Source: a virus. Taken from it: a DNA stretch of 33,116 bases. The notes below the pieces were generated by a model that made no database searches, was not told where the DNA came from, and was given only the letters and a program-made list of their open reading frames with translations. Shown here one piece after another: positions 453 to 33,116 of this stretch (positions within the stretch are counted from its first letter, which is position 1; the number at the start of each line of letters is the position of its first letter). The stretch lies in IMG/VR virus record IMGVR_UViG_3300042934_000549, positions 1 through 33,116 of that record. One strand, 5' to 3'. The translations under genes were made by a program, and so were the position numbers.

Positions 453-842
453 ATGATGATTCGGAAGCCAGCCGGCCGCCCGTTGGGTGACACCGAGTAT
501 CTGCTGGAGCAGTGGGGGTGGTGGAGAATGGATGGAGCGGGAGTTTCTACCTGCATTTCGCCGACGTGGGCTCTAATGCAACAGGCTATGCCGCAAGTCT
601 CTGTAAGTCCGGATTATTGCATCACTGACGACTGGGCGCTCGCAATCGATAATGCCGTGGCTAGGCTTTCGCACCGTGACCTCCAAATGGGCGAGATTAT
701 TTGGCTATATTACGGTGCCAAATGGCCCATGCTGCGGGTTGGTAAGCACTTCGGGATCAGTGAGGGAAAAGCCAGAGAATTGGCCAGATCAGGGACAGCT
801 TGGATCGACTGCGCAATAAGCGTAGTCCGCGACGCCGCATGA
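453..842 (+). CDS. Q: Phage late antitermination protein Q
   Basis: A 129-residue protein resembling the short phage antitermination Q family. It has the N-terminal LLEQWGWWRMDGAG block, a SPTWALM segment, a central acidic DDWALAIDNAVARL helix, and a C-terminal helix-turn-helix-like stretch (LRVGKHFGISEGKARELARSG) ending in a WID element. Proteins of this family load onto RNA polymerase paused near the late promoter and let it read through terminators into lysis, head and tail genes. The order here, Q and then the lysis and structural genes, fits. AGGGGAT lies just upstream of the first of two consecutive ATG codons (453 and 456); either could be used. Family assignment is by recall of the pattern, not by a search. 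Confidence 0.72.
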   Translation: MMIRKPAGRPLGDTEYLLEQWGWWRMDGAGVSTCISPTWALMQQAMPQVSVSPDYCITDDWALAIDNAVARLSHRDLQMGEIIWLYYGAKWPMLRVGKHFGISEGKARELARSGTAWIDCAISVVRDAA

Positions 843-916
843 GTGATGTAAAAACTTCATCGGCAGAAAGCGGTTAAATTTATGCATAGTTACGACTAAT
901 TATAGACTTCAAAAGT

Positions 917-932
917 GGGGGCGTTAGCCCCC
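917..932 (-). terminator. Hairpin ending the SEC-C cargo gene
   Basis: GGGGGC (917-922), loop GTTA, GCCCCC (927-932). Read on the minus strand the stem is followed by ACTTTTG, which is terminator-like and lies downstream of the minus-strand SEC-C gene. On the plus strand no T run follows. A second hairpin, ATCGGC (942-947) with GCCGAT (957-962), stands between it and the gene. A role as the Q-dependent leader terminator of the late operon is possible but less supported. Confidence 0.5.
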
Positions 933-1016: not shown

Positions 1017-2165
1017 CTACGGCAGAATTTGCGTGGCACTCTGAGGCCAAAGCGAAATTTTAGTGTGAAGACTTTCCGCGGTCTTAGGAATAGGGCCGAC
1101 TCCCGTTCTGCAAAGCTCACAGATAGATTGCTGTTGGTCAATATCTAAATTATCCCACCAGGCTGGGGAGACATAAGTATTTTCTAGGTTCTGGAAACTG
1201 ATTCTCACTATTAAGTCTGATAATAAGTTGCGTGGGTGTTTCTTTATCGACTCAATGTAATTTGCTGCCACCTCAAAAGGATCATCCAGCCAACCAAACA
1301 CTGCGTACGATTTCCCATTGAGATTTAATAGGTTAAACGCGATTACTTGGAAGTCAATAGTTCCTCTTGATAGTTCTTGCAAAGGAACGTCATTAATGTC
1401 GAATTCTGGGCAAAATGCACCGCAGGCAACAATGGGAGAGGGGCTATCAAACTCAATCGCGAAGTATTTGAATTTACTGTATTCCTTATTTAGGTGTGCT
1501 GAGTCATAATTTTTCTTCAGCTTTTCGTGTGTTCTAAACCCGGTATTGTATCCTTGAGTTGAGATATGGACATAATTCTGTATGTATGCTTGAATTTCGA
1601 ACGGCTGGCCGCGGTCTTGTAGCACCATGAATGGTGTTGCCGCTATAGCGCGTTGTTTTCCATGGTATTCATAGGAAATCGCTCTGTAAGCCATGTAAAA
1701 CGCTGTTTCCTGGCCGATTAGGACAGTGGGTGTCTCAATTGGTTTGAAAAGTGCGGTATCGTGTTTGTTGCAAAAGCCTAAAAATGTAGACGCTTTTCGT
1801 ACACTAATTTTGCATGGTTGAAATATATCGCCATCCATAGATGGAACCAGCTTGAAAGTGTAAACATGCTGTTTTTCCGAAATTGTGCTTATCCCTCCAT
1901 TCATTTGAATCGTATGTGAGTTGATCGCACGTGCCGCACAGGTGTCAGGCCCAGCGCTGGGATGTAGGCATCGGCCCTGATCATAGTTCTTACGCACTAG
2001 GCGTTGGTATTCTCTTACATGAATTTCAGGCTCGGATTCACGAAGTTTGTGGCAGAATTTCCATTTCTTGCCAGAGCTGCACCAGCAAAGTACGTACGGA
2101 TCGCTTGGGCTTCGCTGTGGTTTGAGTTCAGTGTAATTTAACGGTGAAACGAGTGATGGATGCAT
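1017..2165 (-). CDS. SEC-C-motif protein, probable cargo (moron) gene, function unknown
   Basis: A 382-residue protein on the strand opposite to every phage gene and visibly AT-richer than they are, both signs of acquired cargo. Near the N-terminus LCWCSSGKKWKFCHK matches the SEC-C zinc motif (C-x-C-x8-C-H). A second cysteine/histidine region follows: GRCLHP, then DTCAARAINSHTIQ, then STFLGFCNKHDTALFKPIE. It looks like another metal site, perhaps of a treble-clef type (inference). No signal peptide or membrane segment is seen. The frame is open back to a GTG at 2234, but a promoter-like -10 overlaps that codon, and the ATG at 2165 has AGGA 7 nt upstream, so I prefer 2165. Cargo genes with such motifs between Q and the late genes are often anti-phage or exclusion factors; that role here is inference. 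Confidence 0.82.
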   Translation of the reverse strand: MHPSLVSPLNYTELKPQRSPSDPYVLCWCSSGKKWKFCHKLRESEPEIHVREYQRLVRKNYDQGRCLHPSAGPDTCAARAINSHTIQMNGGISTISEKQHVYTFKLVPSMDGDIFQPCKISVRKASTFLGFCNKHDTALFKPIETPTVLIGQETAFYMAYRAISYEYHGKQRAIAATPFMVLQDRGQPFEIQAYIQNYVHISTQGYNTGFRTHEKLKKNYDSAHLNKEYSKFKYFAIEFDSPSPIVACGAFCPEFDINDVPLQELSRGTIDFQVIAFNLLNLNGKSYAVFGWLDDPFEVAANYIESIKKHPRNLLSDLIVRISFQNLENTYVSPAWWDNLDIDQQQSICELCRTGVGPIPKTAESLHTKISLWPQSATQILP

Positions 2166-2225
2166 CTGAAGTTCCTGCGGAATGTTTTGTTTTCTTGTCC
2201 GGCGTAATGTCACGGTGTTGTCATA

Positions 2226-2255
2226 ATTAAACACCGTTCAATAACGTGAGGTCAA
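2226..2255 (-). promoter_or_regulatory. Sigma-70-like promoter for the SEC-C gene
   Basis: On the minus strand, TTGACC (2255-2250) and TTTAAT (2231-2226) are separated by 18 nt. They match the -35 and -10 consensus at 5 of 6 positions each. Transcription would begin near 2219, leaving a leader of about 53 nt before the ATG at 2165. Having its own promoter means the gene could be expressed in the lysogen. Confidence 0.5.
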
Positions 2256-2645
2256 TTCTGGCGCGATCATAAGCCACTTGCCCGGTCTGACGAATGACAA
2301 TTTTCTTGGATAGATGAAATCAAGCGCTGCGGATCAACCAGGCCGTCAGGAAGGATTCGAGCTACTCGGTGGGTGTTTTTTGGAGACAGCCACAGTTCAC
2401 GAATGGCGGCATTCAGCAATTTCTGCTCGAAAGCACCGGCGTCACTGGTCGACTTGTTAGGAGCAGGTTACCAAGCTTGGTACTTTCGCCCTAGGGACAT
2501 AGGCAGAGCTGCGGATCATATGAACGAGGCGAAAAAAAGCTTTTCCGCACGGAATGAGTTTGTTTTCATAGCAGCGTCTGTTGCTGTCAACGCAGCGCGA
2601 CGAATCCAAGAACCCTGCATCGAACCGGGTTTTTGTGCCCACTTC
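2256..2645. other. Gap between cargo gene and lysis genes; 14-bp palindrome
   Basis: No convincing gene. The open frames on both strands here have no ribosome-binding site and no recognisable sequence. The stretch contains a perfect 14-bp palindrome, TACCAAGCTTGGTA (2469-2482), that could be an operator, and a weak stem AACCC (2611-2615)/GGGTT (2627-2631) followed by TTT. A late promoter may lie here or between 842 and 917, but I cannot point to a good one. Confidence 0.35.
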
Positions 2646-2671
2646 AAGCCCTGCCATGCGCGGGGCTTTTT
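2646..2671 (+). terminator. Rho-independent terminator upstream of the holin gene
   Basis: AAGCCC (2646-2651) pairs with GGGCTT (2663-2668), followed by TTT and then CGTTCTC. It lies 78 nt before the holin start. In a Q-controlled phage such a terminator would be read through only by antiterminated polymerase, so it may act as a gate on the late operon (inference). Confidence 0.55.
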
Positions 2672-2749
2672 CGTTCTCGGCCCTGCGCTTGCGCCCCGCT
2701 TCATGCGGATGTCAGTGACATGTGAGCCAACCTAAATTGAGGAATGCAG

Positions 2750-3073
2750 ATGAACAACGAGCATCAGGCGCTCGCTGATGTGCCCTTGTGGCTATTGGTG
2801 CTGCTGAGCATGGCTGGCCTCTCCGGTGAAATGTTGCGTGCCTCTGGTGCTGATCTGAGTCTTCGGCAAATTCTGCAACGGGTAGCTCTGCGGTTTCTCG
2901 CTTCAGGGCTGCTCGGCATGGCTACGCTGCTGTTAGCCATGGCGCTCTGGAGCAATCTTTATCTGGCTGCGGGCCTAGGAATTGTCATTGCTGTGATTGG
3001 TGCAGATGTCGCCGGAGGTCTTTACACCCAATTCTTGGCCAAGCGCGTCGGAGTCTCGACCAGAGAACAATGA
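2750..3073 (+). CDS. Phage holin
   Basis: A 107-residue hydrophobic protein with membrane segments around residues 11-24 (VPLWLLVLLSMAGL), 47-67 and 70-91. The C-terminal GADVAGGLYTQFLAKRVGV resembles the end of LydA/HP1-type class holins (conserved G-D then a basic tail). It would form the pore in the inner membrane that releases or activates the endolysin at the end of the lytic cycle. GAGGA (2739-2743) is well spaced for the ATG at 2750 but abuts an upstream ATG at 2744, so 2750 is preferred. It is the first late gene; its endolysin and spanin partners are 21 kb away at 24766-25820, unlike the compact lysis cassettes of lambda or P2. Confidence 0.65.
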   Translation: MNNEHQALADVPLWLLVLLSMAGLSGEMLRASGADLSLRQILQRVALRFLASGLLGMATLLLAMALWSNLYLAAGLGIVIAVIGADVAGGLYTQFLAKRVGVSTREQ

Positions 3074-26301: not shown

Positions 26302-27324
26302 ATGGCTACGGCCCAACAAATCATTGCTCTGCTGAGCAGCCATAACCAAGGTGATGAGGAGCAATTCCTCTCAATCGTCTTGCAGGTTGCTGCGGCTGAA
26401 GCGAGACGCGGGCGGAGTGATGTTGCGGCTGAGCTGAAAACGCTGGTTGATACTGCTCGTAAACGTGGGCAGAGCAAATCGCGTCACGTGCCTAGCCATG
26501 AGCAGGTTGCCATTCCAATCTCTAGGCCTCGTGGCGAGTTGGAAAACCTTCTCTCTGTAGCCTACCCCAAATCTCAGCTCCAAGATCTGATTCTGGATGA
26601 GTCAAAAAGCGACCGGCTGAGGAGGCTAATCCACCAACAGCGTCAGCGAGATAAGCTCAGAGCTCATGGCATGCCCCCTAGCTCACGGCTGCTTCTGGTG
26701 GGGCCCCCTGGCGCAGGCAAAACGTTGACCGCCTCCGTTTTGGCCGGAGAACTGCAGCTGCCTTTATTTACCATTCGCCTCGAAACACTGATCACACGTT
26801 ACATGGGCGAAACAGCATCTAAGTTGAGATTAATTTTTGACCATCTCAATACAGTGCGAGCGGTATACCTTTTCGATGAGTTTGATGCGATTGGGGGGCG
26901 GCGCAATGCCGATAATGATGTAGGTGAAATGCGCCGCGTCTTAAACTCCTTTCTTCAGTTCTTGGAAGAGCCAAATAGCACTGACAGCCTAGTAGTAGCG
27001 ACCACGAATCATCCAGAACTGCTTGATAAAGCGCTTTTCCGACGATTTGATGAAGTAATCGAATATGCTTTACCGGATGCTAAGGGCGTAAAAGCGGTTA
27101 TCAAAATGTGTATGAGCGCCTACCTTCCCCAAAGAATTTCATGGACCAAGATCGGTACTGCTGCTTCAGGGCTCAGTCAAGCTGAAATTAGCCGAGCAGC
27201 GTCTGAAGTTATAAAAGATTTGATTCTGCACGATGCTAAGCAGGCATCTGCCGAACAGATTGTAACCGCGCTTCAGCAAAGGCATGCACTAAAAAATACC
27301 CTATCAGGATTAAACCCTAGCTAA
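26302..27324 (+). CDS. ietA: AAA+ ATPase of an IetAS-type defence module
   Basis: A 340-residue ATPase. Residues 1-120 are a helical N-terminal region (FLSIVLQVAAAEARRGR, a Ser/Arg linker, then DRLRRLIHQQRQRDKLRAHG). The AAA+ core has Walker A GPPGAGKT (134-141), Walker B VYLFDE (188-193), sensor 1 in VVATTN (N236) and a probable arginine finger in LFRRFD (247-248). It is followed after about 44 nt by a subtilisin-like protease gene, the pairing seen in IetAS defence modules and first described as a Ti-plasmid incompatibility/toxin-antitoxin-like pair. AGGGA lies 10 nt before the ATG and a TAGAAT (-10-like) near 26249. The AT-richer sequence and the position beside attR mark it as acquired cargo. 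Its role in controlling the protease is inference. Confidence 0.88.
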   Translation: MATAQQIIALLSSHNQGDEEQFLSIVLQVAAAEARRGRSDVAAELKTLVDTARKRGQSKSRHVPSHEQVAIPISRPRGELENLLSVAYPKSQLQDLILDESKSDRLRRLIHQQRQRDKLRAHGMPPSSRLLLVGPPGAGKTLTASVLAGELQLPLFTIRLETLITRYMGETASKLRLIFDHLNTVRAVYLFDEFDAIGGRRNADNDVGEMRRVLNSFLQFLEEPNSTDSLVVATTNHPELLDKALFRRFDEVIEYALPDAKGVKAVIKMCMSAYLPQRISWTKIGTAASGLSQAEISRAASEVIKDLILHDAKQASAEQIVTALQQRHALKNTLSGLNPS

Positions 27325-27368
27325 TCGCTTAAGCGTCGTGGGTTTTGGATTTATGGAAAAATTCCAAC

Positions 27369-29864
27369 ATGGCATCGTACGAGCTCCCTCATTGCAGATT
27401 TGAGAAATTTAAATCCGCTAAGCTGTATAAAAAACGGCAGATGGATATGAGTTCTGCCTCAAGTGAGCGAGAGGCGGGCCATGGGGGTCGGCTTCGTGAA
27501 AGGTTTGATCTTTCGATCAAAGCTCACGCAGGACAAAATGGTTATTTTAGCAATGATATTAGCGAAACTCCACGCGCTATTTACATTGATGTGGAGATTG
27601 AGGCAGGTGCGCCCCCGCCCGACCTTAATTGGAAGACACAAAACATTCGATTGTCAGCTCTAAAGTTGCAAGAGGACGGAGTGACTGTCGGTGCGTTGTA
27701 CCTACCTGAAGGCTCGGTGTCTTTTTTTGATCAAAAACTAGCTGAATATGCCGAGCAGAGAACTCCAGGAGGAAAGCCGAAGAATGACTCGAAATTTTCT
27801 TCCCTCAACTATTTTTCACTTGGATCCATTCAGAGCCTCTGGACGGATTCTCGCCCCTTTCCAGTAAGTACAAAAAATCTTTGGTGGGAGTGCTGGTGCG
27901 GATCATCTCAAGTCAATCTCGTCAGGCGAATAGCGGAAAAGCTTAAGCTCAGAGTTAATGAGAACTCGCTAAAATTTCCTGATATCGAGGTCATGCTAGT
28001 TTATGCAAATGCAGTCGAGATATCGATGCTGGTGGATAATTCCAGTGGTATCCAAGAACTGCGGAAAGCATCCGATAGTCCGTACTTCTTCACTAGGTTA
28101 ACGCCTGGCGAGCAACAAGACTGGGGTGATAATTTACTGGGACGAATCCGGGTTGCTGACAATGAACATCCCGCAGTTTGTATCTTAGATAACGGCGTGA
28201 GCTCGGCCCATCCATTATTACAGCCAGTGTTAGATCCAGAAGATTGCCAAGCAATAAATAGTGAATGGGGGTGCGATGACCATGATGGGCATGGCACAAA
28301 CATGGCGGGAGCGGCAGTGTTTGGCGACATGACCTATGCGTTGGCTGACCAGAGAGACTTAGAACTGACCTATAAGCTAGAGTCGGTAAAGTTCTTACCA
28401 CCCACCGGTTGGACACGTAATGCCCCGGAAAGTTATGGAGTTATCACTCAGGCAGCCGTTAGCTTAGCAGAGACGAAGGCTCCGACAAGAAACCGAGTAT
28501 TTTGCATGGCCGTGTCGAATGCTCATGTCTCTGGAGAGCGGCCGACAACGTGGAGCTCTGCGATCGACCAGCTGTGCTCCGGCACCATGATTGGTGACTT
28601 TGACGATGAAGGTCATTCTGGTCCGCGACGCCTATTTATACTTTCGGCGGGCAACATCCCGGACTCAACAAATCCAGAAGACGTAGCCGATCTTTACGAC
28701 TATCCAATAGAAGACCCTGCTCAATCTTGGAATGCCATAGCCGTAGGCGGCTTCACTAATAAAACTGATCTGGATGGACAGCCTGGCTATGAGGGGTGGA
28801 GGACATTCGCCGAGGCAGGAGACCACAGTCCGTACAGTAGATCGTCGGTTGACTGGGAGCATAGTCGATGCCCGATCAAACCCGAGGTTGTCTTTGAAGC
28901 AGGTAATAAGGCCTTAAGCCCTGATGGAAAGCAATTTTATTCAGGAGTTCCTGCATTATCAATTTTGACAACTGGTAGAAACTTTACAAGAAATCCAATT
29001 GAGGAGTTTTGGGCTACCAGCTCCGCTACGGCCCAAGCTGCGGGTATGGCTGCCGCTATCATGGCTAAGCATCCAGATTTCTGGCCAGAAACAGTTCGAG
29101 CACTGATGATCCATAGTGCGCAATGGACACCTGCCATGCTCGAAAAACTACAAGGAAAGAGCAAGAAAGAGCGCATCCTACTTGCTCGGCATTTCGGATA
29201 TGGAGTGCCGCAGTTGGCGCGCGCTCTCGCGTCCGCTGAGCATGATTTGGCGTTGATATCTGAAACATATATTCAGCCGTTCAAGAAAGATCTCGACTCG
29301 CGAGGGAGAGAGCGCGGTGAGCCTCACTTCAATGAAGTCCACTACTACGATCTTCCTTGGCCAAAAGCGGAGTTAGAACGGCTTGAGAATCGTATAGTTC
29401 ATCTGAAAGTAACTTTGTCTTACTTTATAGAGCCAAGCCCTGGTGAATTGGCTCAAGTTATTCCCGCAAGATATCAATCGTTCGGACTTAGATTCGATTT
29501 GAAGCGAAAATCAGAAACTGAATCGGCGTTCCGCCACCGGATAAATAAATTAGAGGAACTTGAGCAAAAGCCACCAAAAACAGAGAGTGATAATAACTGG
29601 ACATTCGGCTCAAAGCACATTTCCGCAGGCTCAATACACAGTGATGTCTGGGTCGGTCCAGCAATTGACTTGGCGGCAAGGGATAAAATTGCAATCTCGC
29701 CGGTGTCTGGGTGGTGGCGATATCGCCAACATCTTGGAAAATATAAAAGTCAAGCTCGATATAGCCTTGTAGTATCCATTACATCTGAGGATGAAGATGT
29801 TAGGCTCTATACGGAAATTTCAAATTTGATTGCGGCTTCGGTCGAGCTAGATATTCTTGTGTGA
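27369..29864 (+). CDS. ietS: Subtilisin-like (S8) serine protease of an IetAS-type defence module
   Basis: An 831-residue cytoplasmic protease with no signal peptide. The catalytic triad is visible: Asp274 in CILDNGVSS, His308 in DDHDGHGTNMAG, Ser551 in ATSSATAQAAGMAA, with oxyanion Asn429 in LFILSAGNI. The usual GTSMAxP box is altered to TSSATAQ (Pro replaced by Ala). About 260 residues precede the protease domain and about 240 follow it (beta-rich; VHLKVTLSYFIEPSPGE), which may sense infection or bind the ATPase. I chose the ATG at 27369 (MASYELPHCRFEKF fits an IetS-type start); a TTG at 27345 is possible. Together with the upstream ATPase it forms the last operon before attR. Confidence 0.9.
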   Translation: MASYELPHCRFEKFKSAKLYKKRQMDMSSASSEREAGHGGRLRERFDLSIKAHAGQNGYFSNDISETPRAIYIDVEIEAGAPPPDLNWKTQNIRLSALKLQEDGVTVGALYLPEGSVSFFDQKLAEYAEQRTPGGKPKNDSKFSSLNYFSLGSIQSLWTDSRPFPVSTKNLWWECWCGSSQVNLVRRIAEKLKLRVNENSLKFPDIEVMLVYANAVEISMLVDNSSGIQELRKASDSPYFFTRLTPGEQQDWGDNLLGRIRVADNEHPAVCILDNGVSSAHPLLQPVLDPEDCQAINSEWGCDDHDGHGTNMAGAAVFGDMTYALADQRDLELTYKLESVKFLPPTGWTRNAPESYGVITQAAVSLAETKAPTRNRVFCMAVSNAHVSGERPTTWSSAIDQLCSGTMIGDFDDEGHSGPRRLFILSAGNIPDSTNPEDVADLYDYPIEDPAQSWNAIAVGGFTNKTDLDGQPGYEGWRTFAEAGDHSPYSRSSVDWEHSRCPIKPEVVFEAGNKALSPDGKQFYSGVPALSILTTGRNFTRNPIEEFWATSSATAQAAGMAAAIMAKHPDFWPETVRALMIHSAQWTPAMLEKLQGKSKKERILLARHFGYGVPQLARALASAEHDLALISETYIQPFKKDLDSRGRERGEPHFNEVHYYDLPWPKAELERLENRIVHLKVTLSYFIEPSPGELAQVIPARYQSFGLRFDLKRKSETESAFRHRINKLEELEQKPPKTESDNNWTFGSKHISAGSIHSDVWVGPAIDLAARDKIAISPVSGWWRYRQHLGKYKSQARYSLVVSITSEDEDVRLYTEISNLIAASVELDILV

Positions 29865-31830: not shown

Positions 31831-32321
31831 ATGAGGACGTTGGAGCAAAGCCTTGCCCAACGAGCGCAGATTCTGCTGTTGCTCGGTGAAGGGGTCGCGT
31901 CCATGGCTATCTGCGAACAGGTGCAGATCATTACTTCAACCGTGTTCAAATGGCGCAAGCGCTACGTGGAAACGGCCTCGACGGTCTGAAGGACTTGCCG
32001 CGCAGCGGGTAGCTCTTGAAGTTGGCTGCTGACAAGATCAAGGAAATCCTGACCCTGACGATCCATCGGGTGCCCAAGCAAGCCAACCACTGGAGCGTCC
32101 GGCTGATGGCCTGATATGCCTGTGTGACAATCTGGCAAGTCCGGCAGATCTGGGCCGCCTCCGATTTCAAACGCCATCGCCTGAGAACCTTCAAGACCAG
32201 CAACGATCCGGTGTTTGCCGAAAAAGTAATCGACGTGGGCGGGCTGTACCTCAACCCTCCAAATAACGCCATTGTGCTTTCAGTCGACAAGAAGACCCAG
32301 ATCCAGGCGCTGGGTCGCACC
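31831..32321 (+). pseudogene. Decayed, truncated IS630-family transposase
   Basis: The N-terminal helix-turn-helix is clear (SLAQRAQILLLLGEGVASMAICEQ, TSTVFKWRKRYVE). A frameshift follows near 31970, after which GLDGLKDLPRSG continues in another frame, then TAG (32010-32012), KIKEILTLTIHRVPKQANHWSVRLMA, TGA (32112-32114), and [24 protein letters not shown] to [19 protein letters not shown]. The first DDE Asp (LSVDKK) is present, but the remaining catalytic half is lost after 32321. It cannot make an active transposase. The 163 nt before it (31668-31830) hold no gene I can support. Confidence 0.82.
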
Positions 32322-32456
32322 TTTTTTTTAGCGGTGCCACCTGCGGCATGTCTACTGAAGGTGCTAAGGCTTTTCTGTAAGTTTGTATCAAAATCTCTAA
32401 GGTAACTGTATGATCCGCGCTGAAACATCTTGACAAGCTAGAGGTGTGAAGCGGCA

Positions 32457-33116
32457 ATGGGAATTTTAAGGTTTTTATTGGCGGCTTTAGTTGTCGTCAG
32501 TCATATGGCGTATACAGTGCAGGGCTTCAATCCAGGTGTGTGGGCGGTGGTCATTTTCTACATACTTGCGGGTCACGTGGTGGCGAAGCTCTGGGCGCAC
32601 AGGCCCCATGAAAAATTGCTTGACTCGATATTGTGGTTTTATAAAGATAGAACGCTCAGGATTTTTCCCTTGTATTTTGCAGCCTTAGCGTTTGGTGCTG
32701 CAATCTGGGGGTTTGGAGCCGAAAGCTACTTCCTAAGCGCGCCGCCTAATGTTTCACATTGGCTTGCCAATTTTACAGTTGTTCCGCTTAGTTACTACAT
32801 GTGGAATGGCATGGATCAGTTCACGCTACTTCCCCCTGCTTGGTCTTTGGGCGTGGAGTTGCAGTTTTATTTGCTGGTTCCATTTCTGATGTTGAGTGCC
32901 AGGTTTGCGATGTGTGCCACCTTCGCCAGTGTCCTGATGTTTAGTGCTGCGCAAATGGGTTGGCTTAACACTGATGTGTTCGGCTATCGAATAATTTTAG
33001 GTGTATTATTTATATTTCTTACCGGTGCGGCCATTGAAAGCGGTTCAAGAAGGGGGCGGCTATGTGTCATCCTGGCGTGGCTTTCTATGCTTTTGTATAT
33101 AGCGGCGCTTTGGGAG
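32457..33116 (+). CDS. Acyltransferase 3 family membrane protein (partial, runs off the right edge)
   Basis: An open frame from ATG 32457 to the end gives 220 residues with at least six hydrophobic segments. It matches the OafA/AT3 family: LRFLLAALVVVSH at the start (with the catalytic-type His in the first membrane helix), VIFYILAGHVV in place of the usual FFxxSGF/Y box, KDRTLRIFPLYFAAL (the conserved R-xxRIxPxY motif), and LPPAWSLGVELQFYLLVPFLM. These enzymes move acyl groups to O-antigen, exopolysaccharide or peptidoglycan across the inner membrane. GAGGTGTGAAG lies upstream. The gene is on host DNA beyond the IS630 relic and could alter the cell-surface receptor for phages (inference). 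Confidence 0.9.
   Translation, partial: MGILRFLLAALVVVSHMAYTVQGFNPGVWAVVIFYILAGHVVAKLWAHRPHEKLLDSILWFYKDRTLRIFPLYFAALAFGAAIWGFGAESYFLSAPPNVSHWLANFTVVPLSYYMWNGMDQFTLLPPAWSLGVELQFYLLVPFLMLSARFAMCATFASVLMFSAAQMGWLNTDVFGYRIILGVLFIFLTGAAIESGSRRGRLCVILAWLSMLLYIAALWE

Follow-up and report, generated by a model that had tools for sequence, protein, structure and literature searches.

A probable prophage-borne anti-phage defence gene in the Q/late-control cargo slot of a Pseudomonas-type lambdoid prophage

The DNA analysed here (the window, 33,116 bases) is an IMG/VR virus record. At the terminase and portal genes it shares 72-79% DNA identity with Pseudomonas aeruginosa phages, and Pseudomonas is therefore the probable host. 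The record itself is probably partial, as the part to the left of the antiterminator gene Q shows no integrase, repressor or replication gene. Between Q (453-842, plus strand; PF06530, 5.4e-9; phrog_79, 3.6e-27) and the holin gene (2744-3073, plus strand; PF16085, 1.4e-24) lies a gene of opposite orientation (1017-2165, minus strand), at the position between Q and the lysis side that had been assigned to it in a preliminary description of this DNA. This gene, hereafter the cargo gene, encodes a 382-aa protein carrying a SEC-C motif (residues 26-39), a Cys/His core, a helical hairpin (residues 152-225) and a C-terminal alpha/beta domain.

The minus-strand ORF (1017-2234) encodes 405 aa if read from a GTG and 382 aa if read from the ATG at position 2165. 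The GTG start was rejected and the ATG retained as the correct one, because the -10 box of the promoter lies downstream of the GTG and because the relatives of the protein align from the ATG. The alignment also reveals an N-terminal M..HPSL common to the cargo protein and its close relatives, and an AGGA upstream of the ATG provides a ribosome-binding site. As full-length relatives exist at 34-38% identity, the ORF is more than a chance occurrence and the minus-strand gene is real. Its description as AT-rich also holds, with a GC content of about 44% (0.42-0.45) versus about 61% (0.60-0.68) in the phage body. The promoter-like sequence reported previously, TTGACC-N18-TTTAAT, is indeed present on the minus strand (2255-2226) and matches the consensus at 10 of 12 positions; dinucleotide shuffling of the 255-nt upstream region reaches its score in 3% of cases, and only two promoter-like sites of that kind occur on the whole minus strand. 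A probable terminator (905-932, minus strand), consisting of a hairpin, GGGGGCTAACGCCCCC, followed by ACTTTT, was recognised by eye and is absent from the terminator-scan list. On sequence evidence, the cargo gene thus has a promoter-like site and a probable terminator of its own and a composition unlike that of its surroundings. It had further been presented as the only minus-strand gene of the prophage body; a 160-aa minus-strand ORF at 31946-32428, devoid of any family match, may be a second one.

The segment that houses the cargo gene is variable. Loci gathered solely by similarity to Q or to tail genes provided 57 distinct Q-holin intervals, which span 249-3646 bp (median 1905 bp), including a single empty site of 249 bp (L200). 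In the window, the segment 845-2528 is unlike the 56 other intervals, whereas the sequences outside these bounds are conserved, the left edge of conservation being the end of Q and the right edge lying at about 2530. Median GC content is 43% in the variable part, versus 57% downstream. Within a slightly wider set of 64 intervals, which adds loci delimited by the following gene when no holin was found, the slot contains 55 unrelated ORF families of at least 120 aa, although the smaller ones may in part not be genuine genes. Of the 55 filled intervals, 21 have their largest ORF in antisense orientation. The cargo gene is therefore an accessory insertion that is absent or replaced in related phages, i.e. 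a moron, and the moron position that had been claimed for it proves to be a recurrent cargo site. More generally, lambdoid phages, Stx phages among them, are established carriers of cargo in the region between Q and the lysis genes. None of the genes seen at the same site in other loci is related to this exact cargo gene, and no cultured phage carrying both the right-edge block described below and the holin was found.

A scan of 40 representatives of the slot for defence families identified three OLD/AriA-type ATPases (OLD/PARIS-like), two GmrSD and one each of DUF4238, ApeA, NACHT, KAP and PDC-S49 (the latter with an E-value of 4e-144); most occupants of the hotspot (loci L108-L219 and positions 842-2530 of the window) have no recognised function. 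Among these, DUF4238 has been validated for defence in P2-like phages of Escherichia coli (PMC9122126). The cos-proximal A-Q hotspot of P2 likewise displays variable, defence-rich cargo, including DUF4238, between conserved phage genes, but the two sites differ, since here the slot extends from Q to a late-control block in a Pseudomonas-type lambdoid prophage. DUF4238 and PDC-S49, which are single-gene defence genes or candidates, also occupy a prophage cargo slot singly, as one large gene; they have no sequence relation to the family of the cargo protein, which is an unnamed candidate.

The cargo is separated from the holin gene by a block of about 215 bp (2530-2743, plus strand), delimited by its conservation in 52-56 of the 56 relatives and including a palindrome (TTCCG-CA-CGGAA) and two tandem terminators (about 2612-2634 and 2646-2672). 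This block is probably the late-control region and would act as the promoter of the late genes. As these two terminators stand between the cargo gene and the holin, late transcription most likely begins to the right of the cargo. The earlier proposal that late transcription runs antisense through the cargo gene is thus not upheld and, given the location of this gene to the left of the probable late-control block, its shut-off by antisense late transcription is unlikely. The cargo gene is antisense to the early/Q side and lies outside the late operon, upstream of the late-control block; transcripts reading through from the early operon might still oppose it.

The SEC-C motif announced for the protein is intact, with the CxCxSGxxxxxC[HC] pattern provided by C27, C29, C38 and H39, though its Pfam score (12.9 bits) falls under the 20.4-bit cut-off. 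SEC-C profile matches were obtained in 16 of 22 relatives at E-values up to 1, the best being 2.8e-10. The protein belongs to no named family: Pfam, NCBIfam, PHROGs and PADLOC returned only the sub-threshold SEC-C motif and, in particular, no PADLOC defence family. Some relatives weakly match the PADLOC models E2 and PDC-S12, probably because of their SEC-C motif. The second Cys/His pattern noticed earlier (DTC...AINSHTIQ and GFCNKHD...LFKPIE) turns out to be where the family is best conserved. Indeed, C66, H84, G130, F131, C132, H135, D136, F140 and R161 are invariant in all 51 aligned members and C76, E144, K170 and N329 are nearly so, the Cys/His core comprising C66, C76, H84, C132, H135 and D136. 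The SEC-C motif is present in 30 of the 51 members and absent from the other 21 while the core is invariant, which indicates that SEC-C is not the working part; this role probably falls to the Cys/His core, SEC-C being accessory. The metal motif is shared with the SEC-C proteins SecA (in its tail), YchJ and YecA, but it is N-terminal in the cargo protein and C-terminal in SecA, and is optional in the cargo family. In the searches made, nothing in SecA, YchJ or YecA matched the Cys/His core or the C-terminal domain of the family. A sequence search of solved structures with the whole family and with the core retrieved, apart from chance matches, nothing but the SEC-C tails of SecA/YchJ.

An AlphaFold model of the cargo protein, obtained with a 51-sequence alignment, has a pLDDT of 89 and a pTM of 0.88. 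Foldseek returned no match at an E-value below 0.001, either for the whole model against PDB and viral models or for the Cys/His core against PDB. The core consists of a Cys pair, a strand ending in H84, a hairpin and a C132-x2-H135-D136 stretch that opens a helix; by eye, this order of elements in the model recalls a treble clef. It also resembles HNH endonucleases in the spacing of the Cys pair, the His and the C-x2-H beside a helix, with an Asp at the helix start. The corresponding mechanism, in which the cargo protein would be a catalytic endonuclease of the HNH family, nevertheless appears unlikely: hhalign comparison against a 12-sequence HNH profile gave a probability of 0.2%, no better than the reversed control, so that the HNH fold suggested for scrutiny in the preliminary description is not supported, no Pfam HNH match was obtained in any family member, Foldseek gave no support and the middle Asn of HNH is missing from the cargo family. 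Zinc binding and catalysis by the protein are both inferred.

Relatives of the cargo protein were found in genomes, on plasmids, in two Listeria records and in 50 virus records, and range from Proteobacteria to Bacteroidota, Spirochaetota and Firmicutes. Carriage is patchy, since the gene was found in about 7 of 369 gammaproteobacterial species genomes (SEC-C-only matches, which made up most of the total, being discarded by profile position) and in 92 of 5,426 E. coli genomes. Where their context could be read, relatives are mostly in mobile elements; this is not the distribution of a housekeeping gene. They are mostly AT-rich relative to their own context, and some copies are broken by an insertion (L077, L061). 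A member lies within 3 kb of the record end in 16 of 35 virus records, for 5.1 expected, a count in which some members are close relatives and which depends on how prophage calling sets the record ends.

Annotated neighbourhoods and PADLOC scans of the neighbours reveal PARIS, Gabija (twice), CBASS and a CBASS-type endonuclease beside members of the family. In Salmonella, the relative belongs to a satellite-like island with AriA and AriB of PARIS; on a Vibrio plasmid, it adjoins an Abi gene and GajA/GajB of Gabija; in a Listeria contig, it lies between GajA/GajB and a CBASS cyclase with a 2TM effector; and at locus L058 it adjoins the CBASS-type endonuclease. Furthermore, relatives accompany TIR and ISP restriction genes on a Lactococcus plasmid and ABC-three component genes on a Rhizobium plasmid. 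The survey of neighbours proposed earlier thus locates the family in defence islands and prophage cargo sites, as tallied without a formal background rate; a Pseudoalteromonas copy sits among metabolic genes, a non-defence setting. The E. coli relatives are found in an integrase-RepL element or between the P2-like genes D and ogr (for example in SCU-124 and E5), a further site distinct from the P2 cos-proximal hotspot. The D-ogr junction, left intact in about 720 of the 1,201 records that match it, is itself an accessory cargo site of E. coli P2-like prophages (L074, L076). At two other loci (L032, L041), the relative lies at a prophage end between genes that by eye resemble umuC and the SOS peptidase gene yedK. 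One Listeria record labelled as a phage (L024, OR846759.1) starts with a gene that by eye resembles guaA and encodes a GajA, a CBASS pair and two helicases of the Gabija type; it has the appearance of a bacterial defence island and not of a phage.

Because related phages carry defence genes in its place and because its family adjoins anti-virus systems elsewhere, the cargo gene is likely to have a defence role, as the preliminary description had guessed. It is probably, as far as sequence and context indicate, a single-gene anti-phage defence cassette borne by the prophage in a Q/late-control defence hotspot. Against this reading, cargo sites also house non-defence genes, no catalytic fold is recognised in the protein and the family is absent from PADLOC. 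The cargo gene would be expressed in the lysogen and its product would stop or kill cells infected by other phages. C66, C76, C132 and H135 would hold zinc, and this zinc core would place the invariant H84, D136 and R161 and the near-invariant E144 and K170 in the active site of an effector acting on nucleic acids, which the optional SEC-C motif might tether to host machinery, for example the ribosome or the Sec pathway. This is the most likely mechanism, but it is a guess and rather doubtful as a whole. Somewhat less tentatively, the family may be an undescribed, phylum-crossing family of single-gene defence proteins with a new fold built on zinc and a His/Asp/Arg/Lys core, located here in an undescribed Q/late-control hotspot of Pseudomonas-type lambdoid prophages. 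In the open-licence papers searched, neither a description of the family or of the Q-holin slot nor, in anti-phage work including that on SEC-C/YecA, the family itself was found. If the defence role holds, current libraries miss a defence protein family whose confidently predicted structure is unlike anything solved, and the slot is a marked genomic place to mine for further defence genes.

Two other roles deserve consideration. The cargo gene could be a non-defence moron involved in lysogenic conversion, encoding a zinc/SEC-C accessory protein that aids host fitness, for example as a chaperone-like factor of the Sec pathway or the ribosome. Such a function has been suggested for E. coli YecA (PMC8076867), which shares the SEC-C motif with SecA and YchJ, and many E. 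coli copies are named YecA family protein in RefSeq. This is improbable, given the 21 members that lack SEC-C while retaining the core and the repeated placement beside PARIS, Gabija and CBASS. A toxin-type or counter-defence cargo, directed against rival elements such as plasmids or satellites or acting on the host during the lytic cycle of the phage, is more improbable still: several relatives are on plasmids and beside toxin-antitoxin genes, but no conserved partner antitoxin gene was seen beside family members, and the antisense orientation and own promoter-like site speak against expression in the lytic cycle.

Besides this probable defence gene, the prophage carries a second AT-rich cargo region, in which lies a pair of genes encoding an IetA-like AAA ATPase followed by an IetS-like S8 peptidase (26302-29864, plus strand). 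Both match the Iet models of PADLOC (IetA, 3.2e-74; IetS, 5e-29), consistent with an IetAS-type pair, with NCBIfam scores below the equivalog cut-offs. An acyltransferase gene (PF01757) at 32457-33116, which runs off the end of the record, is possibly a lysogenic conversion gene that modifies the cell surface.
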